Source of the DNA: a virus
Virus record (IMG/VR): IMGVR_UViG_3300030105_001789
Location: 1 to 33,477 of that record
Direction: 5' to 3' (one strand)
DNA: 33,477 nucleotides
Positions within the stretch are counted from its first letter, which is position 1. Each line of letters starts with the position of its first letter. The notes beneath the pieces were generated by a model, which worked only from the letters and a program-made list of their open reading frames with translations, made no database searches and was not told where the DNA came from. Position numbers and translations under genes: made by a program. Below, piece by piece: positions 6,552-21,527 of this stretch.

Positions 6552-6615
6552 TCTCTTTGTTTTTTAAGTATTCTGTTAACTTGCTAAGGTTTAATTCTTT
6601 TATTTTGTATCTCAT
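6493..6615 (-). CDS. possible 40-residue protein overlapping the fibre start
   Basis: The ATG at 6615 comes one base after the connector gene stop (TAATATG), ideal for coupled translation. The product is basic and helical (MRYKIKELNLSKLTEYLKNK...). It overlaps the first 59 bases of the fibre gene in another frame. The 65-base gap has no other content. Plausible but supported only by context and amino acid composition. Confidence 0.4.
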   Translation of the reverse strand: MRYKIKELNLSKLTEYLKNKENERLQRCEYRNVSIREKSE

Positions 6616-6616
6616 A

Positions 6617-7117
6617 TTATAGAACCCAGTTAGTAGGGTTTATGTCTTTATTTGGATCAATCTCATCACCTTCGTTTGTGCTGTACTCTGGGAAATCATT
6701 ATCATTTTCACATAAATGATTTACTAGTAACTTACCGAAATATTCACTATGGATTCTATGTTGCTCACTTAAAGCATCCACTTCCGATTGCTCTGCTATT
6801 TGTTCGCTGCTACCAGAGTGTTTAAAAACTCCACCATTGCCCAAAGTAAATCCAGCAAACGGTAAGAACATAGACATAGTGCTATGTGTTAAAAATGGCT
6901 GTATGTAATCTGTATTTAACGCTAAGTAAACACCAGCTAAAGAACCAGCAACAATATCAGCTGCCATCTTATCGTATAAATCTTGCCCTAAATAACCTCT
7001 CACATCTTTTAGCTGCGATAGATATATAAATTGTGTTAATTTATCTCTATCTAAACTACCATCTAAAAAAGTGCTTTTAATTATATCTTCTGGTTTTATA
7101 AATAATGCTTTTGCCAT
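6617..7117 (-). CDS. head-tail connector-like protein, 166 aa
   Basis: The sequence begins MAKALFIKPEDIIKSTFLDG and is largely helical (LTQFIYLSQLKDVRGYLGQD, then IADVAG-like and IHSEYFGKLLVNHL helices), with a glycine-rich loop in the middle. Size, helical content and position directly after the portal gene suggest the gp6-type adaptor that sits under the portal. The family match is not certain. Confidence 0.5.
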   Translation of the reverse strand: MAKALFIKPEDIIKSTFLDGSLDRDKLTQFIYLSQLKDVRGYLGQDLYDKMAADIVAGSLAGVYLALNTDYIQPFLTHSTMSMFLPFAGFTLGNGGVFKHSGSSEQIAEQSEVDALSEQHRIHSEYFGKLLVNHLCENDNDFPEYSTNEGDEIDPNKDINPTNWVL

Positions 7118-7120
7118 ATC

Positions 7121-8833
7121 TTAATTTTTTAAACTTCCTTTGTTAGGTTTGTCAATTTCTGGAATAGCAACATCTGGATTGTTTTTAGGTATTTTAGCAC
7201 CTTGTCTTTTTGCTTCATTTACATTTACAGGAAATGTATTCTGCGTTGCGTTACCTCCTAATGGTTTACCATCAACTCTTTTCTTCTTAAATATTCTACG
7301 TTCCCATCTATGGTAACAATTAACACCGCCACCATATAAGAAGATGTCATATTTACCTCCGCTATGCGCAAACTGTCCGTTAACACCGTTAGCACTCATC
7401 TTTTCAATATCTTCTTTTCTAAATACTTTACCAGATTTAGACAACCTCATCATTCTATTGCAAAAGGTTCTACTTTTACCCTCTGGAGTTTTAGATGTGC
7501 CTAAGTTATAAGCATATCTAATCTTCCAAAGTTTGGTGTCTTGCTCGCTGTTTTGTGTGCTTCCAAGCTCAACCTCATATTGTGACGGTTCTGATAAATC
7601 GTGCTCTACACAATGAAGATTGTAACCTTCTGGTGCATCACTAGCGTATTGCTCTAAATTCATTTCTGCACTCAATTCTGCATCGACTCCTGTTTCTTCT
7701 TCAATAGTTTCTTCATCTACAACGCCATCAACATCTATAAATTCCAAAGGTTTTAAGGTTTTGAAATATAGCTTTAAGCTAATGTCATTAAAAGCTAATA
7801 TTTTATCGAGCCCTCTAATTATTTGGTTTTGAAAAGGTTTAATTATTTGATTGTTAAATAATGCAAAAGCATTTTGTAACTCCTCTGCGTTATTACCTAA
7901 GCCACTATTATCTTTTACACCTATTAATATAGGATTTGTAACCTTATGCGCTCTTAATAGCTTGTCTGTTGCTTCATCTGATAAAAATTGGTATTGTTGA
8001 GAAGCATCATTAAGTTGTAGGTTCTCTATTGTTGCAGCACTATCTTTATTTTTATTAAAAGCAACGATAATTTTACTTCTGCTTTTAGCTCCACCCCATT
8101 TTTTTACAATGTCAGCTTCAATTTGTAGTTGTGTCTTTTTATCTGGCACTCCATTGTTAAAGTTTAAGAATGTAGATGCTGTCATTCCGTTTTGTAAATT
8201 ATTGATATGAAAAGAACTCATCTCGTCTTCCATTTCAGCATATACAACCCCAGATTGATAATCACAAGGTGAAAAGTAAAAGCTACCAGCAGCATAAGGC
8301 TGAATATATAGTATTTCACTTTCTTTACTAGACATTCCAAAAGCTGGAAATCTTGTAGGTTTTATTTTATTGTTTTCAAAGTCAATAGAGTGATAATATG
8401 CTTCTATTTCTCCATCTTCATTTGCTTTTTCTGGTGCTAAATAGTTTACAGGTATGTGAAAAACCTCTACAATCTTGTCGTGTTTGGTATTATATATAAC
8501 TTGTAAGGCAAATTTACCCAGTTTTTTGTAGTCTTTTACAATGTTTTCTATCTCAATCTCCTTAAATAAGCTAATCATTTGAGCATATTGCTCTGGTTTC
8601 TTAGCAGAATCTAAAGCAGATAAGCCTTTACCATAAATTAAATTAGAAATACCATCTATAATACTTGCATTTGTAGGACTTTCGTTATATGCTTCTATTA
8701 AATACTTAAAATAACTGTTATTTTCACCCCACGTTACCCATTGTTTATTGATAGATTCCTCTACAATAGGTTTAATATAGCTCGAAAGCTCGATTACAGA
8801 TATGTTATTTTCTTTTTTTATCGGTTGTTTCAT
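7121..8833 (-). CDS. portal protein with C-terminal extension, 570 aa
   Basis: Residues ~30-370 have portal features: WGENNSYFKYLIEAYNESPT, an SIIDGISNLIYGKGL segment, VFHIPVNYLAPE, the stem region RAHKVTNPILIGVKDNSGLG and FALFNNQIIKPFQNQIIRG. The portal forms the dodecameric DNA entry ring of the head. Residues ~385-570 form a separate domain (TFCNRMMRLSKSGKVFRKED ... YGGGVNCYHRWERRIF) with conserved Cys, His and Trp, possibly a minor-head or MuF-like module fused to the portal. Unusually, it lies well downstream of TerL, after the capsid gene. Confidence 0.8.
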   Translation of the reverse strand: MKQPIKKENNISVIELSSYIKPIVEESINKQWVTWGENNSYFKYLIEAYNESPTNASIIDGISNLIYGKGLSALDSAKKPEQYAQMISLFKEIEIENIVKDYKKLGKFALQVIYNTKHDKIVEVFHIPVNYLAPEKANEDGEIEAYYHSIDFENNKIKPTRFPAFGMSSKESEILYIQPYAAGSFYFSPCDYQSGVVYAEMEDEMSSFHINNLQNGMTASTFLNFNNGVPDKKTQLQIEADIVKKWGGAKSRSKIIVAFNKNKDSAATIENLQLNDASQQYQFLSDEATDKLLRAHKVTNPILIGVKDNSGLGNNAEELQNAFALFNNQIIKPFQNQIIRGLDKILAFNDISLKLYFKTLKPLEFIDVDGVVDEETIEEETGVDAELSAEMNLEQYASDAPEGYNLHCVEHDLSEPSQYEVELGSTQNSEQDTKLWKIRYAYNLGTSKTPEGKSRTFCNRMMRLSKSGKVFRKEDIEKMSANGVNGQFAHSGGKYDIFLYGGGVNCYHRWERRIFKKKRVDGKPLGGNATQNTFPVNVNEAKRQGAKIPKNNPDVAIPEIDKPNKGSLKN

Positions 8834-8834
8834 A

Positions 8835-9173
8835 TTATGGTGTTACAAATTCGTTATCTCTTGCAGCAGTTTCTACAAAATCGTTCTTATTAATTACATA
8901 TTTCTCGTAATCTGTTTGATCAGTACAAAATATAGAACCTCTATACATTAAAACAGTACCATTTAATACTTCATAGTTGTAATAAGTACCTTCTATTAGT
9001 GTAAATGCTTGCGCTATTGTAGCCTGTTCATTAGTATAAGCAGCAGTTACGGTATAACTAACTGTTATATTTGTGTCTTCGCTAGTAACCTTTAAATTCA
9101 AAGAAGAAAGTACTGTGCTTCTAGGTATAAAAATAAGGTTTTGTGAAGTTGTTACAGTTGTTAGTATGTTCAT
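8835..9173 (-). CDS. structural protein, probably neck or head-decoration, 112 aa
   Basis: A beta-rich protein: LIFIPRSTVLSSLNLKV, ITVSYTVTAAYTNEQATIA, YYNYEVLNGTVLMYRGSIFC. The short repeated beta hairpins suggest a fibronectin-like or neck fold. It sits between the tail-tube-like and portal genes and starts with the shared late leader, so it is a late structural gene. Exact role unknown. Confidence 0.55.
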   Translation of the reverse strand: MNILTTVTTSQNLIFIPRSTVLSSLNLKVTSEDTNITVSYTVTAAYTNEQATIAQAFTLIEGTYYNYEVLNGTVLMYRGSIFCTDQTDYEKYVINKNDFVETAARDNEFVTP

Positions 9174-9206
9174 ATTAATAAGACTAAATTTTAAGTATTT
9201 GTTTTA
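9171..9206 (-). promoter_or_regulatory. shared late-gene leader, copy 1
   Basis: On the minus strand: TAAAACAAA, 12 bases, AGTCTTATTAATATG, ending in the start codon of the 112-residue gene. This copy differs by one base in the first block. Three other late genes carry the same element. Confidence 0.7.
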
Positions 9207-9229
9207 TTTAATAAATTATTGTATCTTTG
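9198..9229 (+). promoter_or_regulatory. plus-strand promoter of the moron-like gene
   Basis: TTTG (9198-9201), 20 bases, TATCTTTG (9222-9229): an exact Bacteroidota consensus with ideal spacing, 17 bases before the ATG at 9247. Its -33 element overlaps the late leader of the divergent gene on the other strand. Confidence 0.8.
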
Positions 9230-9246
9230 TAGTAAATAAATATATT

Positions 9247-9489
9247 ATGAAATACAATTTTGGAGAATATATTAAAAAAAAAGAAAGTAAATTTTTAAAT
9301 ACAATAGTTAAAGGAACTGACCTTATTAGAATTAGTGATGCAAATAATTATTTTTTTGAATATAATAAACAATTAGAACTTAAATTACTAGACAATAATG
9401 TTATTAAAGAACTAAGAAACTCTATGTCTAATGCAGAATGGAGACGAATTATTAAAACAAAACTATTTAAAAAAAAGAACGTACTATAA
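9247..9489 (+). CDS. moron-like gene, 80-residue basic protein
   Basis: The ATG at 9247 is chosen because the promoter ends at 9229; longer upstream frames would start before the promoter. The protein begins MKYNFGEYIKKKESKFLNT and ends in a strongly basic tail (RRIIKTKLFKKKNVL). It is predicted helical with no recognised domain. The gene is alone on the plus strand within the structural block and has its own consensus promoter and terminator, the classic moron layout: independent expression of an accessory gene. Function unknown; it may bind nucleic acid. Confidence 0.8.
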   Translation: MKYNFGEYIKKKESKFLNTIVKGTDLIRISDANNYFFEYNKQLELKLLDNNVIKELRNSMSNAEWRRIIKTKLFKKKNVL

Positions 9490-9501
9490 AGCACGTTCTT
9501 T
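9474..9501 (+). terminator. intrinsic terminator of the moron-like gene
   Basis: AAAGAACGT (9474-9482) pairs perfectly with ACGTTCTTT (9493-9501). The stop codon (9487-9489) is in the loop, so the hairpin overlaps the end of the coding region. The T tract is short and interrupted (TTTCTC). It can also terminate minus-strand RNA coming from the 182-residue gene. Confidence 0.75.
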
Positions 9502-9529
9502 CTCAATGAAAAATCCAAAACACTATTTC

Positions 9530-10078
9530 TTATGGTGTGATTTGAGATGTACTAATAGTTGCTCCACTTGTTAAAGCAGCAGTTAAGCTAGTAGTTATAT
9601 AGTTTGCCCATATTTTTTCTTGTCCAGATATAACTAAAGTATATCCGTTGAAGTCTCCTAAAGCACCACCTATATTTGCATTACCATCTAAAATCTCACA
9701 TCCGTAATCTAATCCTGCAATCATAAAGTCGCCAGAGTTTGTTTCGATAACCACGTGAGGTCTTCCGTAGATTAGTAATTTTAATTCTTTGTTAGATAAA
9801 ACATCTGTTTTATTAAGTGTTACATTTACTGTTTGTTCTGCAAAAGTAGTTCCGTTCTCTCTTGAAGATGTCATCTTCTGTTCAAAGGTAGAGACACCTT
9901 TTAAATCGTATTGAAACCAAGTAGTTGTTGCACTACCAAAAGTAGTGATCTCATCTGTTTTAGTTCCATCATAAGTAATCGCACCAAGAGAACCAAAGTC
10001 TGCAAAGTAAATAGCTTTTAAACCAGATACTGCATCTTTACATCCTACTGCTCTACCAATTGTTAAATCACAAGCCAT
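9530..10078 (-). CDS. major tail-tube-like structural protein, 182 aa
   Basis: Begins MACDLTIGRAVGCKDAVSGL, then KAIYFADFG, a FQYDLKGVSTFEQKMTSSRE segment, LLIYGRPHVVIETNSGDFM and FNGYTLVISGQE. Similar compact beta-rich proteins beginning MACxLTxGRxxxCKD follow the capsid gene in Bacteroidota siphophages and are usually taken as tail-tube or major structural proteins. It has its own transcription context, preceded by a terminator after the capsid gene. The tube assignment is inferred. Confidence 0.55.
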   Translation of the reverse strand: MACDLTIGRAVGCKDAVSGLKAIYFADFGSLGAITYDGTKTDEITTFGSATTTWFQYDLKGVSTFEQKMTSSRENGTTFAEQTVNVTLNKTDVLSNKELKLLIYGRPHVVIETNSGDFMIAGLDYGCEILDGNANIGGALGDFNGYTLVISGQEKIWANYITTSLTAALTSGATISTSQITP

Positions 10079-10097
10079 ATTATTATATTTTTTTTAT

Positions 10098-10134
10098 AAA
10101 AAAAAGGTAAGTGAATAAACACCCACCTTTTTTT
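10098..10134 (-). terminator. terminator downstream of the major capsid gene
   Basis: A run of A plus GGT (10098-10108) pairs with ACCTTTTTTT (10125-10134), and GTG (10111-10113) with CAC (10120-10122). On the minus strand the hairpin ends in a long T run just after the capsid stop, so it can reduce read-through into the 182-residue gene. The stem is nearly symmetrical and may work in both directions. Confidence 0.7.
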
Positions 10135-10154
10135 GTTATTAATTTGTTTTATTA

Positions 10155-11078
10155 TTATGCGTATCTTACAATTTCAGCTCCGTAACCAAAAGCTACTGCT
10201 GCTGTAAATTTCATTATAACACGAATATTATCGTCGCCCAAAGTAGCCGATGTATCAATTACTTGAACTTGTTCGATGTCATTTCCTATATTTGTTCCGA
10301 AAAACAAGTTAGAAGAACGTGCCGCCATCATATCACTTGAAGGTAAACCTTTCGCTAAGAATAAGTTAATACCATTAAAAGCTAATTGTGTTGGCTTACC
10401 ATCTTGATAACCACCTTGATGATAGTCAGCAGCTCCTAAAGCTGTAACATAATGTCTGTAAACATTTGTAGGAACATAGATATTTAAGTCTTCTTCCATT
10501 CTGATTGTATCAGGGATAGCAGCTTCTACTTTTGATAATTCTGCAATAACATTTGCAGCGCTTATAGTAGTTCCTGTTACATCGATAACATCAGAATCAG
10601 CTAAAGCTAATACCATTAAGCCATCATATTGTCCAGCTGTTGCATTAACACCTTGCCATATGTTGCTTTCGTTTCTTGTTGCTACTTGTTTTACAACTTG
10701 CTCAACTAAGTAAGATTGAAAATTAGGTGCTAAAGAATCACTTGCTCCGTAACCGTTTTGTAATGCATTCCAAGTTGCTTGGTAATCTGCTTTACAAAGC
10801 TCTAAGTTTACCTTAAAGTTTTCTGGTGCTAATGTTTTATCACTTAAAGTGATAGTTGAAGTATCTGAAAAATCACAAGATGCATTCTTAACTAAGTCTG
10901 CTGATAAATCCAAAGTTTGAATTTCCCATTTGTAATCGATACCTGGTACTACTGTCAAACCTCCGTTTGCAATAGTAGATGCTCCTAATAGAGCTGCTGA
11001 TATAAAGCTATCTGAAGCCTTACCTGCGTAATTTTGACTAACTGTTGAAGTTGTCGCTAATTTAGTTTCTAAACTCAT
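10155..11078 (-). CDS. major capsid protein, 307 aa
   Basis: Length, position after protease and scaffold genes, and features such as an N-terminal helical segment, VVPGIDYKWEIQTLDLSADL, CKADYQATWNALQNGYG, EDLNIYVPTNVYRHYVTALG and a C-terminal VIMKFTAAVAFGYGAEIVRY fit an HK97-type capsid protein. Alanine-rich helices alternate with beta strands of the P- and A-domains. The start lies 17 bases inside the end of the scaffold gene, suggesting coupling that balances the two products. Confidence 0.75.
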   Translation of the reverse strand: MSLETKLATTSTVSQNYAGKASDSFISAALLGASTIANGGLTVVPGIDYKWEIQTLDLSADLVKNASCDFSDTSTITLSDKTLAPENFKVNLELCKADYQATWNALQNGYGASDSLAPNFQSYLVEQVVKQVATRNESNIWQGVNATAGQYDGLMVLALADSDVIDVTGTTISAANVIAELSKVEAAIPDTIRMEEDLNIYVPTNVYRHYVTALGAADYHQGGYQDGKPTQLAFNGINLFLAKGLPSSDMMAARSSNLFFGTNIGNDIEQVQVIDTSATLGDDNIRVIMKFTAAVAFGYGAEIVRYA

Positions 11079-11724
11079 TTTTATTTGTTTTATAAAAGTT
11101 ATTTAACATATCGGTAACTCTATCTCCCGTAGTTTTTCTACGATTTGCTCCGATTATGTTCATTTTTATTTCTTCTGTTTCTTTAGCTTCTGGAGAAGAA
11201 TTAATCTTCTTAGATGCTGGTACTGATTCTAATTCTGTTTTTAAATCTTCTACTGATGAAAGCAATTCAGCCTTTTCAGTTTCGTGCTTATTTAAAATTT
11301 CTTCATCGTGAGATGTAAGCATTGATTTAATTTCGTTTATTGCAACCTCAAAATCTGCTACTGTAACAAATTCAGATGCTTGCTCAACTTCTTCTGGTGC
11401 TTCATCTTCAGCTGGTGCATCACCTACTGATTCAATAACTCCTTCTTCAGCAACTACTAATACTCTACCATCTTCTAAAGTGTAATCGCCAACTGGTACT
11501 GCTACTCTTTCGTCTTCTGAAACGATAAACACATCTTGTCCTGCTTCAAATGATTCTGCTTCTAATACAGTTCCGTTCTCCAAAGTTTGTGCTTCTAATT
11601 TAGTTTCAACTTCTTTAGTTTCTACAACCTCATCCGTTTTAACTTCCTCTAATTTAGTTTCTTCGATTTCTTTCGATAATCCTATTATTTTAGTTATCGC
11701 TTTTATTTTCTCTATTGTGTTCAT
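11062..11724 (-). CDS. putative head scaffolding protein, 220 aa
   Basis: Highly acidic and Glu/Val/Lys-rich. The first ~45 residues are a charged helix (KLEEVKTDEVVETKEVETKL). Residues ~45-105 are a compact beta segment (LENGTVLEAESFEAGQDVFI ... GDYTLEDGRVLVVAEEGVIE). Then come coiled-coil helices (EFVTVADFEVAINEIKSMLT, ETEKAELLSSVEDLKTELES) and a basic C-terminus. Low complexity, helices and position between protease and capsid are typical of scaffolds. Starts with the shared late leader. Confidence 0.65.
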   Translation of the reverse strand: MNTIEKIKAITKIIGLSKEIEETKLEEVKTDEVVETKEVETKLEAQTLENGTVLEAESFEAGQDVFIVSEDERVAVPVGDYTLEDGRVLVVAEEGVIESVGDAPAEDEAPEEVEQASEFVTVADFEVAINEIKSMLTSHDEEILNKHETEKAELLSSVEDLKTELESVPASKKINSSPEAKETEEIKMNIIGANRRKTTGDRVTDMLNNFYKTNKNEFRN

Positions 11725-11756
11725 ATTAATAAGACTATTTAAATTTGTTTGTTATA
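11722..11756 (-). promoter_or_regulatory. shared late-gene leader, copy 2
   Basis: Minus strand: TATAACAAA, 11 bases, AGTCTTATTAATATG, ending at the scaffold start codon. Upstream, TTGAAAATATAACAAA is nearly identical to the copy before the protease gene. Confidence 0.75.
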
Positions 11757-11763
11757 TTTTCAA

Positions 11764-12330
11764 TTATGATAATATTATTTTTTTTATTTGATCCAAAATA
11801 GATTCATCTTTAGATTGCTCTATTGCTTTATCAGCGAAAAACCCCTCTATGCTAAATCCTTTAATCTCTCCGCTCTTAGCTTTCTGATATATTTCTTCAT
11901 TATCTACCTTCATAGATACCATCCAAGTTCCAACAGGTACAGATAAACCGTAGTATGCAGATTTATCTTTTTCCATATCTTCTACTATCCAAGATTCTAC
12001 AACTGTAATTCCTTCTATTTTTGTAGCATGTTCTAAAGTGCTTTCTTTTTGGTGTCCTTTCTTTAAAAATAATTCACTCCCCTTTCTTACTGTTGACTTA
12101 CTAAAGAAGATATGATACTCCTTACCTTCTTTTACTCTAAGAATTGCTTTGTCTGGAATTAATGCAGCACCAAGTAATATTCTTTTCTCTTTATCAACCT
12201 CTACTAACTTAACTTCTTTGCTAAGCATTAAGAAATCAGACTCTATTGCAGGGTTCTCAACTAAAGATATAGCGTTGATACCGCCAAGTTCTTCGTCTTC
12301 ATCTATAAACATTTCAATTATATCGTTCAT
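11764..12330 (-). CDS. XkdF-like prohead serine protease, 188 aa
   Basis: Starts with an acidic NDIIEMFIDEDEELGGINAI and SLVENPAIESDF, as in XkdF-like phage proteins. It has a catalytic-type histidine in ESTLEHA (~96) and a serine in IKGFSIEGFF (~165), separated by VESWIVEDMEKDKSAYYG. Such proteases process scaffold and capsid proteins during head maturation. It is the first gene of the protease-scaffold-capsid set and starts with the shared late leader. Confidence 0.75.
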   Translation of the reverse strand: MNDIIEMFIDEDEELGGINAISLVENPAIESDFLMLSKEVKLVEVDKEKRILLGAALIPDKAILRVKEGKEYHIFFSKSTVRKGSELFLKKGHQKESTLEHATKIEGITVVESWIVEDMEKDKSAYYGLSVPVGTWMVSMKVDNEEIYQKAKSGEIKGFSIEGFFADKAIEQSKDESILDQIKKIILS

Positions 12331-12362
12331 ATTAATAAGACTTTATTTTTTTATTTGTTATA
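12328..12362 (-). promoter_or_regulatory. shared late-gene leader, copy 3
   Basis: Minus strand: TATAACAAA, 11 bases, AGTCTTATTAATATG, ending at the protease start codon. The preceding bases CCTGAAAA match copy 2 (TTGAAAA). Confidence 0.75.
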
Positions 12363-12451
12363 TTTTCAGGTTTATTAAAAAAAAAGTTGTATATTGCGGT
12401 ATAATTATTACTTTAATATAAATATTAAAACGTAAACATAGTTAAAAAATA

Positions 12452-12459
12452 TATCTGTG
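12452..12459 (+). promoter_or_regulatory. -7 element of structured RNA 1
   Basis: TATCTGTG matches TAnnTTTG with one mismatch and is followed by CTATAACTATG. The promoter of the paralogous RNA 2 reads TATCTTTG then TATAACTCTTTG, so the element and the bases after it are conserved between the two loci. Confidence 0.55.
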
Positions 12460-12463
12460 CTAT

Positions 12464-12683
12464 AACTATGACACATGGGTAGTTTTATAAACTGTATCAG
12501 CAGTTGTATTTATTGTAGAGCTTGGTTAGAATGTAAAAAAAGTAAGCATGTACCCTTTGGTGTCTGTTAGGCTTACCACCAATTCCATCTGATATATGGG
12601 TAATAGTTTATCGAGCAGAACGAACTGCCTAATTGTTATAATTAAATAGTTTAAACCTCACTATTAATTTAGTGGGGTTTTTT
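12464..12683 (+). ncRNA. structured non-coding RNA 1, about 220 nt, with complementary hairpin loops
   Basis: No ORF of note. A closing stem joins AACTAT (12464-12469) to ATAGTT (12646-12651). P2 pairs GACAC (12470-12474) with GTGTC (12560-12564) and GGGTA (12477-12481) with TACCC (12551-12555). Hairpin A is AACTG-TATCAG-CAGTT (12490-12505). A 3' stem pairs TTAGGC (12567-12572) with GCCTAA (12627-12632) and encloses hairpin B, CCAT-CTGATAT-ATGG (12585-12599). Loop A (12495-12500) is the exact complement of the first six bases of loop B (12589-12594), so a kissing or pseudoknot contact is expected. It ends in an intrinsic terminator. A paralogue with the same loops lies at 19072-19277. Stems were found by eye. 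Known family membership cannot be checked here. Confidence 0.75.
12655..12683 (+). terminator. intrinsic terminator of RNA 1
   Basis: AACCTCACTA pairs with TAGTGGGGTT (one G-U pair) followed by six T. The 34 bases 12650-12683 are identical to the minus strand of 19072-19105, the terminator of RNA 2. It also lies directly after the tape measure gene stop on the opposite strand. Confidence 0.85.
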
Positions 12684-12684
12684 A

Positions 12685-14754
12685 CTACCCAAAACTAGCT
12701 GTACTTTCTTTCTGTCTATCTAAAGATTGTTGTGATGAAATCTCTGTACTTACTACAAATGCTTGTACAGGTTGTTGCGTTTGATTAGCTACACTTGCCG
12801 CTAATTGATTTGTATCACTTGTTCCTACTACATTAAACTGCGGTGCTGCTGCTTGTACTGGTGCTGTAACAGAACTTGCACTTGGAGCTGATACGCCACC
12901 ACCTGCTCCACCTGTTGGATTAGGAGTCGCTAGTATTCCTTTAACTTGTGAAAGCCCAAAAATACCTGTTGCTATTGCCGCTGGTATATTAAAAGGTGCT
13001 GGTATAGATGCTAGTGTTCTAGTAATAGCGTTCTTAGTATTCCATATTGCTTGTGCTACTGCAACAGCTTTACCTACTGCACTCTCCCTACCTACTATCT
13101 CAATAACTGCATTAGCAGATTGGTTCATAACTGCAATCTTAGTATTAGCTAATTTCTTTTCTACTTCAGCTTCTTCTTTAGCCTGATCTTTTACTACCTT
13201 TTCTTTTTTGTCAGCATAGAAATCTCTTATCTTTTGCTTTTGTGCTTCTGTTGCATCTAGCTTTTCTAAATCTCTAATTCTATCAGCTTCTTCTTTCTCT
13301 AATTTTATAATTTCATCTTCTTCTGCAATAACTCCATACTTATCTACAATAGCTTTTACTGATAGTATTCTTTTTTCTTCTGCCGTTGCTGCTTCGATAG
13401 CTTTTTTCTCGTCTATTACTCTTTGTGTTTCAATAGCTTTTAGCTTCGCATCTTCAATAGCTTTTATATCAGATAATTCTTTATTTGTAGCGGTTGTTAT
13501 TTGTGTCTGTAAAAGTCTTTGTATATTTAATTTCTTACTTTCTAACTGTATTGCTTTTGCTGTTAATTTAGCAACCTCATCTTTATCTTTCTTTGTATTT
13601 TTTGTTAAACTATTCTCTAAAATAAGAGCATCTAATCTTATCTTATTAGCAGCAATTTCTTTTCTTGCTATATCTTCTGCAATATTAGATGCTTCTTTTA
13701 ATAAACCAATTCTTTCTGTCGCTGTGTATCTATCTCTTTTTTCCGCTTCAAGTCTTAGCTCGTTTATATCTCTAGTTGCTTTTATTCTTTCAACAATTAA
13801 ATCACGTTCTATTATATCAGCCTTTGCCCTATCGTCTGCAATCTTAGCAGCTATCCTTCCCTCTGCTGTTACCTCGTCTTTTAATCCTTTTACTGATTTA
13901 GTGACTTTATCAATAGTGTCTTTAACTCCCGTTAATGTATCAACGTAAGAACTACCAGCTTTTTTAGCATCTTCTAAAGCTCCACTAAAATCACCGCTAA
14001 ATACTTTCTTAAATGCACTACCTAAGAAACCAATAGTATCTAATATTGCATCAAATCTATTTGTTATGTTTTCTACTATTAAATTCTTAAAATCTAATAA
14101 TGCTTTTTTAGGACTTGTAAACACATCTATAATTGCTTCACCTAAATCTGCAACCAAATCTAAAACGTTATCTACAACAGAACCTATTACAGCCATTATC
14201 TTAGCAAACTTATTCTGTCCTTCCTCCGAGCGTTTAAACGCTTGTACTAAAGCTATAACTCCAATAACTAAAGCACCTATTCCAGATGCTATAATGGCTA
14301 GTCTTAATCTACCAAAACTTTTAGCAGCTCCATTAACACTTAGAGAAAGTCCTTTGAATTTAGTAATAGCACCACCTGTTAATTTATCTAAGGAACTTGT
14401 AACAGAGTTAGCTTCTTTACCTGTGTTTTTTAAAGCACTTGTGCTTTCTTTCTGTACCTTAACTTGTTCTTTTATCTTTTTGTTTGCCTTACCTCTTTCA
14501 TTGTTTAAACCCTTTAAAGATGTTTTCTGATCCTTTAAAGAAATTTTTAACTTTTCTATTTGGCTTCTTAATGCTTTTTGTTGCTGTAAGTTTCCCTTAG
14601 ATGAAGATGCTAATTGATTTTCTAATTTAACAAGTTCCTCCTCAAATTCAATAGTAATATCTTTCTGCTCTTGAATAGTGTCAGATAATTTATCAAATTG
14701 CTTTTGTGCATCCTTTAGATTTACATCAATTTCTATTACTTTCTTAATTGCCAT
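12685..14754 (-). CDS. tail tape measure protein, 689 aa
   Basis: A long coiled-coil N-terminus (VNLKDAQKQFDKLSDTIQEQ ... LRSQIEKLKISLKDQKTSLK) is followed by a hydrophobic segment (LAIIASGIGALVIGVIALVQ, ~153-172). Long charged Lys/Glu/Ala helices fill residues ~285-555. A second hydrophobic stretch (WNTKNAITRTLASIPAPFNI) precedes a Gly/Ser/Ala/Gln-rich end. These are typical of tape measure proteins that set tail length. At ~0.15 nm per residue the tail would be roughly 100 nm. Its start overlaps a 50-residue gene, and the upstream frameshifted chaperone gene probably assists its folding. Confidence 0.9.
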   Translation of the reverse strand: MAIKKVIEIDVNLKDAQKQFDKLSDTIQEQKDITIEFEEELVKLENQLASSSKGNLQQQKALRSQIEKLKISLKDQKTSLKGLNNERGKANKKIKEQVKVQKESTSALKNTGKEANSVTSSLDKLTGGAITKFKGLSLSVNGAAKSFGRLRLAIIASGIGALVIGVIALVQAFKRSEEGQNKFAKIMAVIGSVVDNVLDLVADLGEAIIDVFTSPKKALLDFKNLIVENITNRFDAILDTIGFLGSAFKKVFSGDFSGALEDAKKAGSSYVDTLTGVKDTIDKVTKSVKGLKDEVTAEGRIAAKIADDRAKADIIERDLIVERIKATRDINELRLEAEKRDRYTATERIGLLKEASNIAEDIARKEIAANKIRLDALILENSLTKNTKKDKDEVAKLTAKAIQLESKKLNIQRLLQTQITTATNKELSDIKAIEDAKLKAIETQRVIDEKKAIEAATAEEKRILSVKAIVDKYGVIAEEDEIIKLEKEEADRIRDLEKLDATEAQKQKIRDFYADKKEKVVKDQAKEEAEVEKKLANTKIAVMNQSANAVIEIVGRESAVGKAVAVAQAIWNTKNAITRTLASIPAPFNIPAAIATGIFGLSQVKGILATPNPTGGAGGGVSAPSASSVTAPVQAAAPQFNVVGTSDTNQLAASVANQTQQPVQAFVVSTEISSQQSLDRQKESTASFG

Positions 14755-14888
14755 AGTTTTCTTTTTACAACATCTTTAGCTTCCCTAAAAGTGTTTGGTG
14801 CTTTATTTATTCCTTTTGCTATATCAATGTTTTCTGAAACACCGAAGTAGTCATCTTGTTTTAATAGTGTAATTATATTTTTAAACAT
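14736..14888 (-). CDS. small protein between tail tip and tape measure genes, 50 aa
   Basis: The ATG at 14888 overlaps the stop of the 682-residue gene by 8 bases, and the stop overlaps the tape measure start by 19 bases. It starts MFKNIITLLKQDDYFGVSEN and ends in a basic helix (REAKDVVKRKLWQLRK). It fills the gap exactly with overlaps at both ends, strong context for a real late gene. Function unknown. Confidence 0.65.
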   Translation of the reverse strand: MFKNIITLLKQDDYFGVSENIDIAKGINKAPNTFREAKDVVKRKLWQLRK

Positions 14889-16929
14889 CGTTTAATAATT
14901 CTAGTTGAACTTTTCCGTTTGTTAAATTGGCTCTCATTTTATTTATAATATATGTTCTTCTCATTATAATTATTTTATCATTTAATTTTAATGTGCTAAA
15001 TATATGCTGTGGAACAATAGCTTTAAATTTAAACACTCTCCTTTTAGTATTATATAAATCTGTAATATAAGTCTGCCAATAGTTAGCGTATAAACTTTCT
15101 GTTTGTGCTGATTGTGTCCAAGTGCTTACCTCACTACCAAAGTTTAAACTATTTGTAATAGCTCCATTTGTTAAAGCGTTCTCTTGTCCTACATTATTAT
15201 ATGTTAATACTTCGCTTCTAGCTCCTGCATCACTTATAAAAGCTAAAGCATTTGTTACAGTCGTTAAAGTAGTAACACCTTTATTATAAAATATAAAAGG
15301 TTCTATCTCTACACTCTCTAATTTATCATCTATAATTTTACCTACGTGCGTATCTGATAAAACACCATCTGTCTGGCTACTCATTCTTTCCATCATAACG
15401 TTTTCAAATTCAGAACTGATAGTTAACTCTCCACCATCGTAAGTGAAGTTAGCTTCTAAATCTCCGTAGTTTACAGCGTTTGTATCTTGGTATTGTTGGT
15501 TTAAAATAGTATCTCCATCTACATACTCAAATGATATAGTCTTATTTAGATTTGGTCTTGAAACATCAATAGTATCTAAATTTACATACTTGGTTAAATT
15601 TATATCTGTTCCCTCTGCATACCATACATCCAAATTCATAACATCAAAAGTAGTCGCAGAAGTAGGTACTATAACAAGGTTGAACATTTTAATTATAGAC
15701 TTTAAAAAATCTCCTATTCTCATTTTAGGCATTTGCCCTTTTTGTAATACGCCATCTACAATTAAATCAGTGCAATATATATATCCTGTTGTGCTAACGG
15801 TTGACGTTGTGCCTTTCGCTGTTGTGGTTGTAGCTTTCTCCAAAGGTGCGCTACCTGTATCTTCCCATTTAACCTCGTACTCTGATAGAGAAGCTGTAAA
15901 GCTAAAAGACTCTGAAGATTGAACTTTGAAATTTATACTTTCAGATATCGCAACACTTACAAATGCTAACTCATATTGAGCTGTTCCTGTTCCTACTTTA
16001 TCAAACTCTAAAGCTGTTGTGCCATCGTCTATAATAATAGTATAATCAACAGTTTCAAAACCACTAGCTGGCGTTACCGTAACCGTATAGATATCTGTCT
16101 CTGTTGTTTCCGTTGGATATCCTGGATCGGTTTGATTTCCATCTACTGCAACACCAAAAGAGGTTGTACTAGAGAAACTTAAAAGACTTGGCGTACCCTC
16201 TGAAGTAATGTATCCTTTATCTCTTGACATCCACATAAACAACTTACCAAAGTCTGTTGTTCCAAAGAAATCAGCAGAGAATGTAATACTATATTTTGTT
16301 TCAATAGCGTCTATAATATGTGCTAGTTTTATAGCTGGCTTTAATTCATTAAATACAATTCCGTTTGTTGTACTCGGTAAGGTAGAACTCTCGTAAAAGA
16401 TATCATCAGTTGTTCCACTATCCCAAAGCCAATTCCTAACAGGACTTATCAAAGGATATATAATGCTTCCACTTGATAACCCTGTTCCCTCTATTCCTAA
16501 TTTTACATTAGTACTATTATAGGTGTGGTTATAAGCAGACAAATCTAAATCGTTTAACATATCCTCTCCAAATAAATCAGATAACTTTACTAGGTTATTA
16601 TAAAATGTAATCTTATAAGAATACACCTTACCATCTCTTAAAGTTGCACTATCTAATTCTATAACACCATCTTTAAATGGCATATAATTTAACTCTAGCT
16701 TCGCACTTGCTCTTGTAGTAGAGTCAAACCCCCCTGTAATATCTGCGTTATACCAATGTTTAAAAATCTTGTTATTGGTTGGAGATGCTGGTATTGTAAA
16801 TGATTGTGTGTAGTCTGTAAAAACTTTAGAAAGGTCGTTAATATTCTGGACAGAGCTATTTAAAGTTACATTCTCATCTTTAAATAATTCTAGCCTTTGA
16901 CTTTCTATATAAACATTTAATTTGTACAT
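14881..16929 (-). CDS. tail tip / baseplate hub-like protein, 682 aa
   Basis: Begins MYKLNVYIESQRLELFKDEN followed by SVQNINDLSKVFTDYTQSFT, a start that recurs in large tail proteins of Bacteroidota siphophages. It is beta-rich, with Ser/Thr-rich segments in the middle (~260-385) and FKAIVPQHIFSTLKLNDKII near the end, reminiscent of hub proteins that bind the tip of the tail tube. It lies immediately upstream of the tape measure gene in transcription order. No enzymatic motif is seen. Confidence 0.6.
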   Translation of the reverse strand: MYKLNVYIESQRLELFKDENVTLNSSVQNINDLSKVFTDYTQSFTIPASPTNNKIFKHWYNADITGGFDSTTRASAKLELNYMPFKDGVIELDSATLRDGKVYSYKITFYNNLVKLSDLFGEDMLNDLDLSAYNHTYNSTNVKLGIEGTGLSSGSIIYPLISPVRNWLWDSGTTDDIFYESSTLPSTTNGIVFNELKPAIKLAHIIDAIETKYSITFSADFFGTTDFGKLFMWMSRDKGYITSEGTPSLLSFSSTTSFGVAVDGNQTDPGYPTETTETDIYTVTVTPASGFETVDYTIIIDDGTTALEFDKVGTGTAQYELAFVSVAISESINFKVQSSESFSFTASLSEYEVKWEDTGSAPLEKATTTTAKGTTSTVSTTGYIYCTDLIVDGVLQKGQMPKMRIGDFLKSIIKMFNLVIVPTSATTFDVMNLDVWYAEGTDINLTKYVNLDTIDVSRPNLNKTISFEYVDGDTILNQQYQDTNAVNYGDLEANFTYDGGELTISSEFENVMMERMSSQTDGVLSDTHVGKIIDDKLESVEIEPFIFYNKGVTTLTTVTNALAFISDAGARSEVLTYNNVGQENALTNGAITNSLNFGSEVSTWTQSAQTESLYANYWQTYITDLYNTKRRVFKFKAIVPQHIFSTLKLNDKIIIMRRTYIINKMRANLTNGKVQLELLNDV

Positions 16930-18098
16930 TAGTAAACATCATTTATAACATTATTAGAATAATCGAAGTCTATTGAATAATTTATTAAACTATCGTTTAT
17001 GTGTTTTTTATAGTCTAAACTAGAAGTAGCAACGCTAGCAGGTTTATCATCTACCCACACAAACTCACTCAATAATAATTGTCTAAGCACGTCTTCCTGT
17101 TCTTCACCTACCCAACCACTATTTAAACTAATGCTTTCTTTTGCATTAACATTGTAATCTCTAACTTGGTGTTTTTGGGTGCTATAATTTCCCCAAGGGA
17201 AACCAGCTATAAACAAACTAGAGTTGTAATTATCTTTAGATACTTTTATCTTTTCTCTTGAAGCCTTATACATATATATTTGTTGAAGCATTCCATTTCT
17301 ATCATAGAACTTAATAGTATTGTAAGTATATTTACATTCCTCTATATTGTTAACTGTAATAGTCTCTAACACCACGCTGTCTCTTATTAAATCTATTGTG
17401 TCTATTGTATTATCAGATGCTTCAGCGAATGTATTAAAGCATGTATTAATTTGATAAGTTCCACTATCTGCTAAAACTCTTGCTTGAAATTTATCTACTT
17501 CATTCTGTATAATACTTATATATTGTTTTTTTCTATAACTAAAAGGACTACTATAAAAAGAAGATAAATCATCTGTTTCTATTAATGTACTTCCGTTATA
17601 ATATTTAACTGTATCTATTCCATCCCCAGATTCTCCAGCAAATAAACCTAAGTATATAGGTTGGTTTATAGGGTTGTTAATTATGCTAGTAAAGAAATTA
17701 GTTCCTATAAAGTTAGCACCATCAGCAAAATACCCATAACCATCAACTGCTAAATATATATTGCTATCTGTTGCTTTTTGCACTCCATCACCTGTACTAG
17801 TCATTTCAATCTCTACCCAAAGCACATCCGAGAAAGTCCCCTCTGCATCCGTGTAAGCATCTCTAGCATGAACAAAATAATCTCTTATTAATTCGCTTAT
17901 CTCAAAAGTTATAAAAGTTGATGTAGTTGGTGACTCTGTTTTATTTATTGTATAAGTTGGAGTCGATGGTTTGTCGGATGTTTCGTGTCCATCCCATATC
18001 CACACCTTACATTGAGCTGTTAAAATATATTCTGTGGTTACTATTCTATTTAAAAAAAAAGGGTTTCTAACGTTTCTCCTTTGTATGTATGTTGCCAT
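16929..18098 (-). CDS. minor tail / tail tip structural protein, 389 aa
   Basis: Starts MATYIQRRNVRNPFFLNRIV with beta-rich sequence throughout (CKVWIWDGHETSDKPSTPTY, TFEISELIRDYFVHARDAY, LWVEIEMTSTGDG). The C-terminal region has KESISLNSGWVGEEQEDVLR and LLLSEFVWVDDKPASVATSS. Stop and start codons overlap those of both neighbours. Probably a distal tail component; no family name can be assigned confidently. Confidence 0.55.
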   Translation of the reverse strand: MATYIQRRNVRNPFFLNRIVTTEYILTAQCKVWIWDGHETSDKPSTPTYTINKTESPTTSTFITFEISELIRDYFVHARDAYTDAEGTFSDVLWVEIEMTSTGDGVQKATDSNIYLAVDGYGYFADGANFIGTNFFTSIINNPINQPIYLGLFAGESGDGIDTVKYYNGSTLIETDDLSSFYSSPFSYRKKQYISIIQNEVDKFQARVLADSGTYQINTCFNTFAEASDNTIDTIDLIRDSVVLETITVNNIEECKYTYNTIKFYDRNGMLQQIYMYKASREKIKVSKDNYNSSLFIAGFPWGNYSTQKHQVRDYNVNAKESISLNSGWVGEEQEDVLRQLLLSEFVWVDDKPASVATSSLDYKKHINDSLINYSIDFDYSNNVINDVY

Positions 18099-18574
18099 TA
18101 TAAAAGTTTGTTTATGTCTAACGCAAAAGCATCGACTAATTCTGTGCTTAATTTTTTAAATTCTTTCTCAAAAGGTTCTGTTAAAAATAACGTTTCTTTA
18201 ATACCTTCTCTTTTTATTTTCCTTGCTATTGCAAATGCTAAACCTTTTAATTTACTTTCTGTTTGCTTTACAAAGCTGCCTGTTTTTAAATCTCTTAATC
18301 TAATAGGTTTCTTTTTAATCCATTTTAATATAGGTGCTGTTGGTGGTTGACTTCCTTTTCTCCTACCTTGATCTACGTTTTCTCCGTAGTCTTCCATATC
18401 TATACTAAATCTAAAGTTACCTGTTTTAAATACCTTTAAATCATAAGATAAAGACTTCCTTAGTGTTCCACTACTATCTATTACTCTACCTTTTCTGCTT
18501 GCCCCTAAATTTATCTTGGCTAACTTTATTACACGCTTACCAAAGTTATCTAATTCTTTCTTTGTCTCTAACAT
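18098..18574 (-). CDS. HK97 gp10-like tail completion protein, 158 aa
   Basis: The pattern of the gp10 family is visible: an N-terminal helix (LDNFGKRVIKLAKINL), VIDSSGTLRKSLSYDLKV, FRFSIDMEDYGENVDQGRRK, PPTAPILKWIKKK, and a C-terminal helical segment (EPFEKEFKKLSTELVDAFAL). Such proteins join tail and head or complete the tail tube. It overlaps its upstream neighbour by 7 bases. Confidence 0.7.
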   Translation of the reverse strand: MLETKKELDNFGKRVIKLAKINLGASRKGRVIDSSGTLRKSLSYDLKVFKTGNFRFSIDMEDYGENVDQGRRKGSQPPTAPILKWIKKKPIRLRDLKTGSFVKQTESKLKGLAFAIARKIKREGIKETLFLTEPFEKEFKKLSTELVDAFALDINKLL

Positions 18575-19032
18575 ATACTTTGAGTGTTTGGAATATCAAC
18601 TGTAAATGTTAAACTCCAACCAGCCAATAGATTCTCGTAGCTATCTTCAAAAGGATCAGCCGAACCATTACCGTTTAAATAATATAAATCATTTGCTAAC
18701 GTTCCCTTTTTTAATGATAGGTTTAACCCATTTACAACAGATAACATTGTATTTAGTATATCTTGCTTATCATCATTACCAAAGAAAGGTTCATTTGTAT
18801 CTTTAACATCTAGCTTAGATACGTTTACAATATCCATACAAGATACTGTTATCTCCATCTGTATAATGTTATCTAAGAAGTTTGCATTGCCTACTAATAT
18901 ATGTGCCAAAGGAAATATAGTCCGCTTGTTTAAATCAACTTCTTCTAAGGTTTTAAGCGTAACCGTATTAATGTGGTCGCTTGTATCTAAGTAGTTTTTT
19001 ATAGCTGTTGTAATCTCGTAGAATCCTTTCAT
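18568..19032 (-). CDS. tail terminator-like protein, 154 aa
   Basis: Begins MKGFYEITTAIKNYLDTSDH and includes FPLAHILVGNANFLDNIIQM, QDILNTMLSVVNGLNLSL and WSLTFTVDIPN at the end. An N-terminal helix followed by a beta-sheet sequence, the ~150-residue size and the position next to the gp10-like gene resemble tail terminator proteins. First gene after RNA 2; starts with the shared late leader. Confidence 0.55.
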   Translation of the reverse strand: MKGFYEITTAIKNYLDTSDHINTVTLKTLEEVDLNKRTIFPLAHILVGNANFLDNIIQMEITVSCMDIVNVSKLDVKDTNEPFFGNDDKQDILNTMLSVVNGLNLSLKKGTLANDLYYLNGNGSADPFEDSYENLLAGWSLTFTVDIPNTQSIC

Positions 19033-19065
19033 ATTAATAAGACTATAAAAGTAGTTTTTGTTATA
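19030..19065 (-). promoter_or_regulatory. shared late-gene leader, copy 4
   Basis: Minus strand: TATAACAAA, 12 bases, AGTCTTATTAATATG ending at the start codon of the 154-residue gene. It begins seven bases after the T run of the RNA 2 terminator, which suggests it restarts transcription or translation after termination. Confidence 0.75.
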
Positions 19066-19071
19066 TCACAT

Positions 19072-19105
19072 AAAAAACCCCACTAAATTAATAGTGAGGT
19101 TTAAA
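19072..19105 (-). terminator. intrinsic terminator of RNA 2
   Basis: On the minus strand AACCTCACTA and TAGTGGGGTT form a stem followed by six T. The 34 bases are an exact inverted copy of 12650-12683. It would also insulate the tail genes from upstream transcription. Confidence 0.85.
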
Positions 19106-19277
19106 ACTCTTTGTCCAAATATCAGTTGGAATTTAGCAGCAATACTTAATGCTCCTACTCACTAAACCTCTTGAATAAATCGCAACTGCTGATACAGTCT
19201 AATAACGCACCTTCCTTACGCACACAGGTTTAAGGGTTCTGAGCTTAATGTTATTGTTTATCTTCAAGCAAAGAGTT
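19072..19277 (-). ncRNA. structured non-coding RNA 2, about 205 nt, paralogue of RNA 1
   Basis: On the minus strand AACTCTTTG (19277-19269) pairs perfectly with CAAAGAGTT (19113-19105) as a 9-bp closing stem. CTTGAA (19268-19263) pairs with TTCAAG (19175-19170), extended by TAAA/TTTA. AATAAC (19255-19250) pairs with GTTATT (19206-19201). Hairpin A is GACTG-TATCAG-CAGTT (19199-19184) and hairpin B TCCAA-CTGATAT-TTGGA (19130-19114). The two loops are perfectly complementary over six bases, as in RNA 1. Sixteen bases around hairpin A are identical in both RNAs. It ends in the same terminator as RNA 1. Only peptides with no recognisable features could be encoded. Confidence 0.8.
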
Positions 19278-19280
19278 ATA

Positions 19281-19313
19281 CAAAGATACAACTTTATTTT
19301 GCTAATAAATCAA
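19281..19313 (-). promoter_or_regulatory. promoter of RNA 2
   Basis: Minus strand: TTG (19313-19311), 22 bases, TATCTTTG (19288-19281), an exact -7 element. The surrounding AATAAAGTTGTATCTTTG and TATAACTC match the element at 19525 apart from two changes, so one promoter is probably a duplicate of the other. Confidence 0.75.
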
Positions 19314-19503
19314 GAAAATGTTCAGCACCTTTATTTGCTATAGCTAATCTGTCTTGATAATTAAGGTACTTACCTACTTTATTATTATTTTCTCTATACC
19401 AACGCTCACAATCTATTTGTGCCATTGCTATGTTTGCAGTCCACCCTATTCTGTAAGTTGGATCTTTTAATCCTTCGTTTAATCTTTCAATTACCTCTTT
19501 CAT
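19294..19503 (-). CDS. hypothetical late protein, 69 aa
   Basis: The ATG at 19503 is preferred over an upstream TTG at 19527 because the TTG is the last three bases of the promoter element TATATTTG. The protein starts MKEVIERLNEGLKDPTYRIG and ends QDRLAIANKGAEHFLDLLAK, mostly helical, with one Cys and several Trp/Tyr. It lies between the tail chaperone and RNA 2. Small proteins with the IANKGAEHFL ending seem common in flavobacterial phages; function unknown. Confidence 0.65.
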   Translation of the reverse strand: MKEVIERLNEGLKDPTYRIGWTANIAMAQIDCERWYRENNNKVGKYLNYQDRLAIANKGAEHFLDLLAK

Positions 19504-19524
19504 TGTTTTAGATTTTAAGTTATA

Positions 19525-19532
19525 CAAATATA
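19525..19532 (-). promoter_or_regulatory. promoter element of the 69-residue gene
   Basis: TATATTTG on the minus strand, exact TAnnTTTG, 21 bases before the ATG. The flanks (AATAAAGTTG before, TATAACT after) equal those of the RNA 2 promoter. Confidence 0.65.
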
Positions 19533-19537
19533 CAACT

Positions 19538-19784
19538 TTATTTCTTAATAGCTTCTAACTCTTGCTTCTCTTTTGTAAACACCAACCATGTTAAACATGC
19601 GTGTAAACTTAGCTCTGTAACTTTGTCAAATCTCGTAAGGTCGCCATCAGCAATTGCGAAGATTGACGAATACCATCCCCACTTGCTCCCGAATTGTCCT
19701 CGTGCTGTAAGGTCTTCTGTATCTCCTCCTCCAAATATGGAAGGGTAGCTTTCAACAAGTCGTTCGTTAAATGATAAAAAAAAA
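19538..19784 (-). CDS. -1 frame extension of the tail assembly chaperone
   Basis: The -1 frame relative to the 215-residue gene is open from a run of nine T at 19776-19784 down to a TAA at 19538. It reads LSFNERLVESYPSIFGG, then FGSKWGWYSSIFAIADGDLT, RFDKVTELSLHACLTWLVF and an acidic-basic end. There is no ATG in this frame. The KWGWYSSIFxIADGD...RFDKVT pattern is what I recall for the frameshifted part of tail chaperones in Bacteroidota phages. Slippage in the T9 run (codons GTT TTT TTT) would give a 239-residue fusion. A slip further downstream cannot be excluded. Confidence 0.7.
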
Positions 19785-20256
19785 CCATCGCCCCTTGAAA
19801 TACTCCTAAAGGTGCGTTTAACATCTCATCTGCAAACTTGGCTGATCCCTCGTACTTTTCTATTTGATATAAGCTATTCTTTTTAAATGTTATAGGTCTA
19901 TACATTACAGCCATAGCACGATGGAACATATCTTCGTCAGATAAATACTTGTCTAAATCTATCTTCTCTCCTAAGCTAATAGCTTCTAGGTCTGGAATGA
20001 AACCGTAAGTAGTTCCGTTCATTGTAAAAGTAGATTGGAATTTAGCTTCTTGATTTAATGCTTTTGTAATTATATTTACAGCTTCATCAAACTTACTAAA
20101 ATCTACATCTCTAATACCTTGATTAATATTGCAAAATATCTCTACTGTTTTCCTATCTATATAGTCTTGATTCGTTTTACCCTTAGTAGCTTTCTGGTAA
20201 TCGTTATACTGTTGTATTGTAATCTCGTTTAGATTTTCTGGTATTGTTATCTCCAT
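19609..20256 (-). CDS. tail assembly chaperone, short (unshifted) form, 215 aa
   Basis: Starts MEITIPENLNEITIQQYNDY, with a C-terminal part GAMVFFYHLTNDLLKATLPY, then LEEEIQKTLQ, and ends LLMATLRDLTKLQS. Gene position between terminase and tape measure, helical content and the overlapping -1 frame are those of the G/GT-type chaperone pair, which coats the tape measure protein before tail polymerisation. The short form ends at 19609; the shifted form continues to 19538. Confidence 0.75.
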   Translation of the reverse strand: MEITIPENLNEITIQQYNDYQKATKGKTNQDYIDRKTVEIFCNINQGIRDVDFSKFDEAVNIITKALNQEAKFQSTFTMNGTTYGFIPDLEAISLGEKIDLDKYLSDEDMFHRAMAVMYRPITFKKNSLYQIEKYEGSAKFADEMLNAPLGVFQGAMVFFYHLTNDLLKATLPYLEEEIQKTLQHEDNSGASGDGIRQSSQLLMATLRDLTKLQS

Positions 20257-20258
20257 AT

Positions 20259-21527
20259 TTATATTACGTTGTATATTCCTTTGTTTGGATCTAATAAGAA
20301 GTACATCCTCATCATAAGCGCATCACTATAATCTGGTGAACGACTTATCTGTTTCTTTACTTCATCTTTACTTAATAGTGCAATCTTTTGTGTGTCTATC
20401 TCTTTAGGCAATCTAACCCATTCTAATTCTTCTGATAGAAGTAACTCTATATCTTCATTGCAATCTATATATATCTCATTTCTGTTAATCATTTCAGCTA
20501 ATTTATAATAGCATTGTGTCTTTAGATTTGCAAAGTTAACCTTTTCTCCGTTAACATCAATCGCTCTTGAATTATTTACAAAACCTTCACAACCTAAGTA
20601 ATCGACAACACCACCACCAACACCATCTTCATCTACAATAGTTCTGTTGAGGTTTACATTGTATTTAACAATCAATCCTTTTATTATCTCTACACTTTCG
20701 TTAACTCTTGTAACAGGTTCTTCTATGATCTCTATAACTCTTAAACCACTCCATACTTTAACTACTGTTTTATCTCTACCAAGTCGTGCAATATCTGCTG
20801 TGATATAATGCTCACCATCTAATATATGTGTGTTACTAAATAGCTTTATAATACTTTCGTTGTTTATAAGCTGACCTTTGTCTTCACTTGCTTCCGCTTC
20901 GTATAGCTCTTTAAATATCTTAGGAGGTAAATCTTTTTGCGCTTGTAGTACTTCTTCTTCAGATAGTATTCCTTCAGCAACAGCATCCCAACATGTAATC
21001 TTAAAGTATTCATATTGTGGATCTTTTTTAGACTTCTCTTTTAACTTATGTACCCAATTAGATATGCCCCCAAAGTTACCTATAATTTTACAAGGTGCTT
21101 CTGTTGCAGATAATGTAGAACGTAAAGCATACCAGCTTTCTGGTCTTGCTCTTGGCGCTTCATCAAATACACACGCATAAACATCTTCACCATATAAGTT
21201 GTCTGGCTTCTCTGCTGTCTTAAAATGTATCTCTGCACCATTAGGGCACACGATATATAAACCGCTTTCATTGAACTTATATAACTTAGTCTTTGCTAAG
21301 TTTCTTCTAAGTCTTTTAAACGCAATCTTAGCTTGTGAATACACAGGAGCAACCCACCAATAGTTATGATTGTAGGCATCTTCTAATTCGTGAGCCTTGG
21401 CATATAGCCAAGTAATATGAGAATATGTTTTACCACTTTTTGTACTCGCTTCTGTAATTGTAAAACGAGCATCAGAAAACAGTATCTTCTTTTGGTAAGA
21501 AGTAAGAGGTGGTTTTATTATTTCCAT
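20259..21527 (-). CDS. terL: terminase large subunit, 422 aa
   Basis: ATPase: Walker A-like ASTKSGKT (27-34) and Walker B YACVFDEAP (117-125, D122 E123). Nuclease: YITADIARLGRD (D245), TIVDEDGVGG (D299, D301) and SPDYSDALMMR (D399, D402), the three acidic clusters of the RNase H-like domain. It pumps DNA into the prohead and cuts it. The start overlaps the small subunit gene by 10 bases. Length is normal, with no sign of an intein or intron. Confidence 0.95.
   Translation of the reverse strand: MEIIKPPLTSYQKKILFSDARFTITEASTKSGKTYSHITWLYAKAHELEDAYNHNYWWVAPVYSQAKIAFKRLRRNLAKTKLYKFNESGLYIVCPNGAEIHFKTAEKPDNLYGEDVYACVFDEAPRARPESWYALRSTLSATEAPCKIIGNFGGISNWVHKLKEKSKKDPQYEYFKITCWDAVAEGILSEEEVLQAQKDLPPKIFKELYEAEASEDKGQLINNESIIKLFSNTHILDGEHYITADIARLGRDKTVVKVWSGLRVIEIIEEPVTRVNESVEIIKGLIVKYNVNLNRTIVDEDGVGGGVVDYLGCEGFVNNSRAIDVNGEKVNFANLKTQCYYKLAEMINRNEIYIDCNEDIELLLSEELEWVRLPKEIDTQKIALLSKDEVKKQISRSPDYSDALMMRMYFLLDPNKGIYNVI

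Follow-up and report, generated by a model that had tools for sequence, protein, structure and literature searches.

We describe a recoded two-product gene of a flavobacterial phage family that probably encodes a tail assembly chaperone, a reading to which we assign a probability of about 75%. The gene was found in a 33,477-nucleotide stretch of viral DNA (IMG/VR record IMGVR_UViG_3300030105_001789, positions 1 to 33,477; hereafter the window), where a run of nine T late in the first reading frame precedes a second, open -1 frame.

A run of nine T precedes a second open frame

The recoded gene and the terminase and tape measure genes discussed below lie on the minus strand, which the initial annotation had left unstated; the plus strand reads A9 at the run. 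The zero-frame ORF (19609 to 20256) encodes a predicted protein of 215 amino acids, the short and G-like product, which matches the profile phrog_32199 (E 7.9e-28). The run (19784 to 19776) is of exactly nine T in the context GCG ATG GTT TTT TTT TAT CAT, in which codons 158-161 of the ORF are GTT TTT TTT TAT and T_TTT_TTT stands in the zero-frame register. Behind the run the zero frame continues for 55 further codons that overlap the -1 frame (19612 to 19776), and the -1 frame is itself open for 79 codons (19777 to 19541) before a stop at 19540 to 19538. This -1-frame part (19538 to 19777) would form a T-like domain with a KWGWY motif, and the predicted fusion comprises 160 + 79 = 239 amino acids. 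The length of the run, both open frames and the size of the fusion agree with the initial annotation. As the AT-rich window holds further T9 and A9 runs, a lone T9 within it would not be evidence of recoding; the evidence is its conservation.

The run and the -1 shift are conserved among relatives

A scan of IMG/VR with the fusion returned 80 relatives at once, and further viral scans together with one GTDB scan extended the set to 212 loci, the window included. Both parts are held by 210 of these, and the 174 distinct sequences, with identities down to about 20%, form 75, 48 and 16 clusters at 90%, 70% and 50% identity, respectively. At every one of the 210 loci the C-terminal part lies in the -1 frame and has a common starting point after a run of 9 or 10 T. 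This comparison of homologues, which keep both the run and the two frames, backs the programmed access to the -1 frame that had been proposed for the window, and on it the observation of a -1-frame part behind the T run is confirmed as real, far beyond chance, with an evident slip in decoding at the run. The run is of nine T in 151 of the distinct sequences and of ten in the other 23 (T10 occurs in 6 of the 75 clusters), and none of the 174 has a run of seven or eight. An exact-pattern scan of contigs across the whole IMG/VR collection, for the T run and a downstream signature, found at least 120 stretches with T9; among the 80 T9 matches listed all look like family members, 72 because their -1 frame has a KWGW-type motif and 8 through resemblance of another kind, and some are incomplete. 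The same scan yielded no family member with T8, the three T8 matches all lying outside the family.

Isolates carry the same arrangement. The isolated phage P12024L has the same site, with the junction CTTTTTTTTTAT and the same -1 frame, and the isolate genome of Galbibacter pacificus CAA-3 has both the same site and the same neighbours. Homopolymers are in general prone to error and slippage, and the second frame might accordingly reflect a sequencing error, a pseudogene or a phase-variable T tract in its off state. We regard all three as excluded because P12024L and the Galbibacter isolate share the site and all 210 loci show an identical -1 offset, none being in phase; the isolate genomes agree, and both parts are under purifying selection.

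The C-terminal part could also be a separate protein made by internal initiation, with no fusion, and it is as two proteins that the two parts are annotated in P12024L (hypothetical proteins gp40 and gp41; JQ823123.1 23946-24640, equivalent to 6001-6695 of locus L082) and in P12024S (gp38 and gp39; JQ823122.1 23136-23830). However, internal initiation cannot easily supply the C-terminal part, because 45 of the 48 cluster representatives at 70% identity have no -1-frame ATG before the KWGW region. The conserved part moreover begins exactly at the T run, and the annotated gp41 of P12024L covers the -1 part from too late a start, so that conserved residues are omitted. We therefore consider internal initiation very improbable, and return to a single recoded gene.

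Within the family, a further subfamily (L260, L261 and L289) carries KWGYFGIMYRLCN instead of KWGWYSSIYALA; its zero-frame tail is about 40 codons long, and T9 is kept. Another member, L088 (JAHZJZ010000222.1), is located on a contig from a MAG that carries the label Epsilonproteobacteria, which is probably a binning error since the named hosts of the family are all Bacteroidota.

Comparison supports dual coding behind the run

The zero-frame tail behind the T run spans 15-83 codons among family loci, with a median of 61. These tails were set against shuffles in which the -1 protein was held fixed and synonymous codons were redrawn from the codon usage of the family; in 52 of 60 genes the zero frame was open for longer than in 95% of shuffles (p<0.05), a typical shuffle reaching a stop after 6 codons. 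In the P12024 group the tail is short (15-25 codons) and no longer than chance in this test, so the long overlap is a property of most, not all, of the family.

Divergence was compared in 55 independent pairs with no sequence in common, the overlap being cut into blocks of 15 codons. At the third position of -1 codons it was 0.062, 0.114, 0.109 and 0.176 in successive blocks as against 0.181 in the non-overlapping tail, which shows the zero frame to be clearly constrained over approximately 45 codons and only weakly after them. In three of four clades the -1 frame had less synonymous divergence within the overlap than in the tail, and the seventh zero-frame codon specifies Leu in all 62 representatives, the -1 residue there being I, L, V, T or F. 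A third-frame stop within three codons (58 of 62) was also considered as a signal and rejected, being put down to the conserved TTTAR codons.

The initial annotation had proposed an overlap of about 165 bases coding in two frames. Its length stands, and the divergence and shuffle tests back dual coding, but selection on both frames is strong only over the first 45 codons or so; it is for these approximately 135 bases behind the T run that simultaneous selection in two frames is supported. In AF2 models, the end of the short product has a confident helical fold in which a helix at residues 150-189 runs on through the slip site into sequence encoded by the zero frame only, which suggests that the short protein has a C-terminal helix of its own. 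The -1 part was confidently predicted as an independent helical domain.

RNA polymerase and the ribosome as candidate slip agents

Because a T9 run contains T_TTT_TTT in register whatever its phase, the slip could be made by either RNA polymerase or the ribosome. The initial annotation had assumed ribosomal frameshifting in the chaperone, which goes beyond the data: a run of at least nine T is just as much a mark of transcriptional slippage, towards which the data lean slightly. We give about even odds to RNA polymerase as the agent, inserting one extra U at the run, and favour it over the ribosome; both may contribute. Transcriptional slippage is recognised by a run of at least about nine A or T at the frame transition that is kept in homologues, and such a run is what the family has. 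In many bacterial genomes, it is also from a length of nine that runs are evidently avoided in coding sequence (PMC1088944), which we count in favour of the polymerase.

The same two products might instead arise wholly by ribosomal -1 slippage on U_UUU_UUU, as happens in lambda and P2 at the shift sites of those phages, the nine-T length being a by-product of this heptamer and of the residues at its ends, an explanation that we hold to be a serious one at somewhat less than even odds. T_TTT_TTT is in register in every member, and 62 of 62 representatives have TTT for each of its two codons. The flanking Ts, the first and ninth of the run, follow from Val, Leu or Ile codons and, in nearly all members, from Leu in the -1 frame, such that the heptamer and these conserved end residues also account for most of the T9 conservation. 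The classical mechanism in tail chaperones is ribosomal, and those of known mechanism shift on the ribosome (PMC5009743). Against wholly ribosomal slippage stands the absence of any run below nine T, both among the distinct sequences and, for T8 members, in the pattern scan of IMG/VR. In addition, two loci hold exactly nine T despite a changed end residue: in L088 a T gained in front makes up for the loss of the last one, and in L102 a T gained behind makes up for the loss of the first. This compensation slightly favours selection on run length itself, as a small argument drawn from two variants and noticed post hoc. Nor is a stimulatory RNA structure conserved, a feature that aids ribosomal frameshifting though it is not required. 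RNAalifold, run for structures free of pseudoknots, predicted no pair 3' of the run across 15 sequences, and among ten single folds only that of the window was better than shuffles, with an 8-bp hairpin just 3' of the T run (19751 to 19771; z -2.55) that is absent from the nine relatives. It is on the run never being shorter than nine, the two compensations and the lack of conserved RNA structure that polymerase slippage is slightly favoured.

Gene neighbourhood, family links and a probable role as tail assembly chaperone

The gene for the terminase large subunit (20259 to 21527; phrog_2, E 4.2e-30; Terminase_6N) is directly upstream of the recoded gene. Downstream lie a 77-aa ORF and two small ORFs whose products look to us like a tail terminator and an HK97 gp10-like protein; two larger ORFs come next, ahead of the tape measure protein gene (12685 to 14754; phrog_9483, tape measure, E 9.3e-9, among other matches). 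A position between terminase and tape measure genes, as initially annotated, is therefore accurate in that the gene directly follows the large terminase, but loose in that five ORFs come between it and the tape measure gene. In the Galbibacter element, four ORFs lead from the recoded gene to a 686-aa ORF, where the locus ends.

The order of structural genes in the window (7121-21527) is unusual, running from terminase through the recoded gene, tail genes, tape measure, protease and probable capsid to portal. A second T9 is found on the coding strand at 18052-18060, near the start of a 389-aa gene (16929-18098) whose Galbibacter homologue has a different N-terminus.

Within the family alignment, the short part matches phrog_32199 in all 61 members and the C-terminal part matches phrog_38404 in 18 of 60; PHROGs lists these as separate families of unknown function. 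Further links are weak: phrog_166 is matched by 10 members (best E 0.0025 against the library) and by P2 gpE at 4e-7, and one member matches Phage_TAC_7 (PF10109) below the cut-off. Pfam and PDB sequence searches with the recoded gene gave no significant match, and the family is absent from Pfam. Foldseek and VIA-align against the PDB gave helix matches only, which do not show a new fold, and hhalign of the family against P2 gpE, Mu gp41, HK97 gp13 and a TP901-1 chaperone gave no support, a weak result as each partner was a single sequence. A BFVD match to R9VW65 of Flavobacterium phage 6H (E 1.8e-4, TM 0.31) was too poor and was dropped. Single predicted proteins of 241-267 aa in BFVD, among them A0A516L611, A0A516L5A8, A0A6J7WJY4 and A0A6J5N0W0 (243-267 aa), match both parts, and may be natural one-frame fusions, that is, members without the frameshift.

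Tail assembly chaperone genes usually, though not universally, adjoin the tape measure gene. With five ORFs between, the recoded gene lacks this feature of G/GT chaperones, and because it is not directly upstream of the tape measure gene we say that its products would work like a chaperone, not that they are one. Another G/GT feature, two products from one start with a late frame change, is predicted by comparison at 210 of 210 loci. Given this architecture, the phrog_166 and PF10109 links and the position in the tail module, a tail assembly chaperone is with good probability the likeliest role, and we do not file the family as a proven member. Its outright naming as the tail chaperone in the initial annotation goes further than the profile links and the non-adjoining tape measure gene allow.

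The same recoded two-product gene might serve another role, as a neck, packaging or other morphogenesis protein. Its location next to the large terminase and away from the tape measure gene would fit such a role, as would the unknown function of both PHROG families and the lack of a significant match to a known chaperone. We think this unlikely in view of the G/GT architecture and the links to phrog_166 and PF10109, and among the ORFs of the window no other of chaperone size stands directly before the tape measure gene.

We infer that both proteins are made, in unequal amounts. Most expression would yield the 215-aa zero-frame protein ending in its own helix, and a minority would slip back one base at T9 to give the 239-aa fusion, in which residues 1-160 would be followed by the 79-aa helical KWGWY domain. 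If the roles follow those of lambda gpG/gpGT, the tape measure protein would carry a coat of the short form, and the rare long form would bring in the tail tube protein.

Discussion

The family resembles lambda gpG/gpGT and P2 gpE/gpE+E' in having one start, a -1 shift towards the end of the first ORF and a place in the phage tail module, and the P2 gpE family is the one to which the weak profile link leads. Those systems produce an abundant short form together with a rare one extended at its C-terminus, as the present family would. We consider that the family differs from lambda and P2 in three respects. Its slip site is a T9 or T10 homopolymer in place of a lambda-type heptamer such as GGGAAAG; its zero-frame tail, with a median of 61 codons, is long and apparently selected in both frames, whereas lambda and P2 have 5-6 codons after the shift site; and its gene follows the terminase, whereas their chaperones precede the tape measure gene. 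A simple heptamer scan could not place the HK97 shift site in register, and for this reason no HK97 overlap length is given.

Likeness extends to Thermus dnaX, Shigella spa13 and mxiE, and IS elements (PMC5009743, PMC1088944), which likewise have a run of at least nine A or T at the frame transition. As in those cases of transcriptional slippage, the run is conserved in homologues and no downstream structure is conserved. Unlike them, the present gene lies in a phage tail module and its run also holds a ribosomal shift heptamer, with slippage here a candidate reading.

We found no report of chaperone frameshifting in flavobacterial phages, or of chaperones made through transcriptional slippage, in the open-access literature; subscription papers were mostly beyond this scope, which makes it weak evidence of novelty. 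The family unites two separate PHROG families of unknown function as the two halves of one recoded gene and corrects the annotation of P12024L/S-type phages. With more than 170 distinct T9/T10 sites of recoding, it also provides a natural collection from Bacteroidota phages, where we found no described case, and its long overlap, selected in two frames, offers a clean system in which to study dual coding. Taken together, we tentatively propose that the ratio of chaperone forms in this large Bacteroidota phage family is set at the invariant T9/T10 run through slippage of RNA polymerase rather than the ribosome, and that approximately 45 codons are selected in two frames, so that the short form would have a functional end of its own. 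If polymerase slippage is the true agent, the stoichiometry of tail chaperones would have evolved by a second molecular route.
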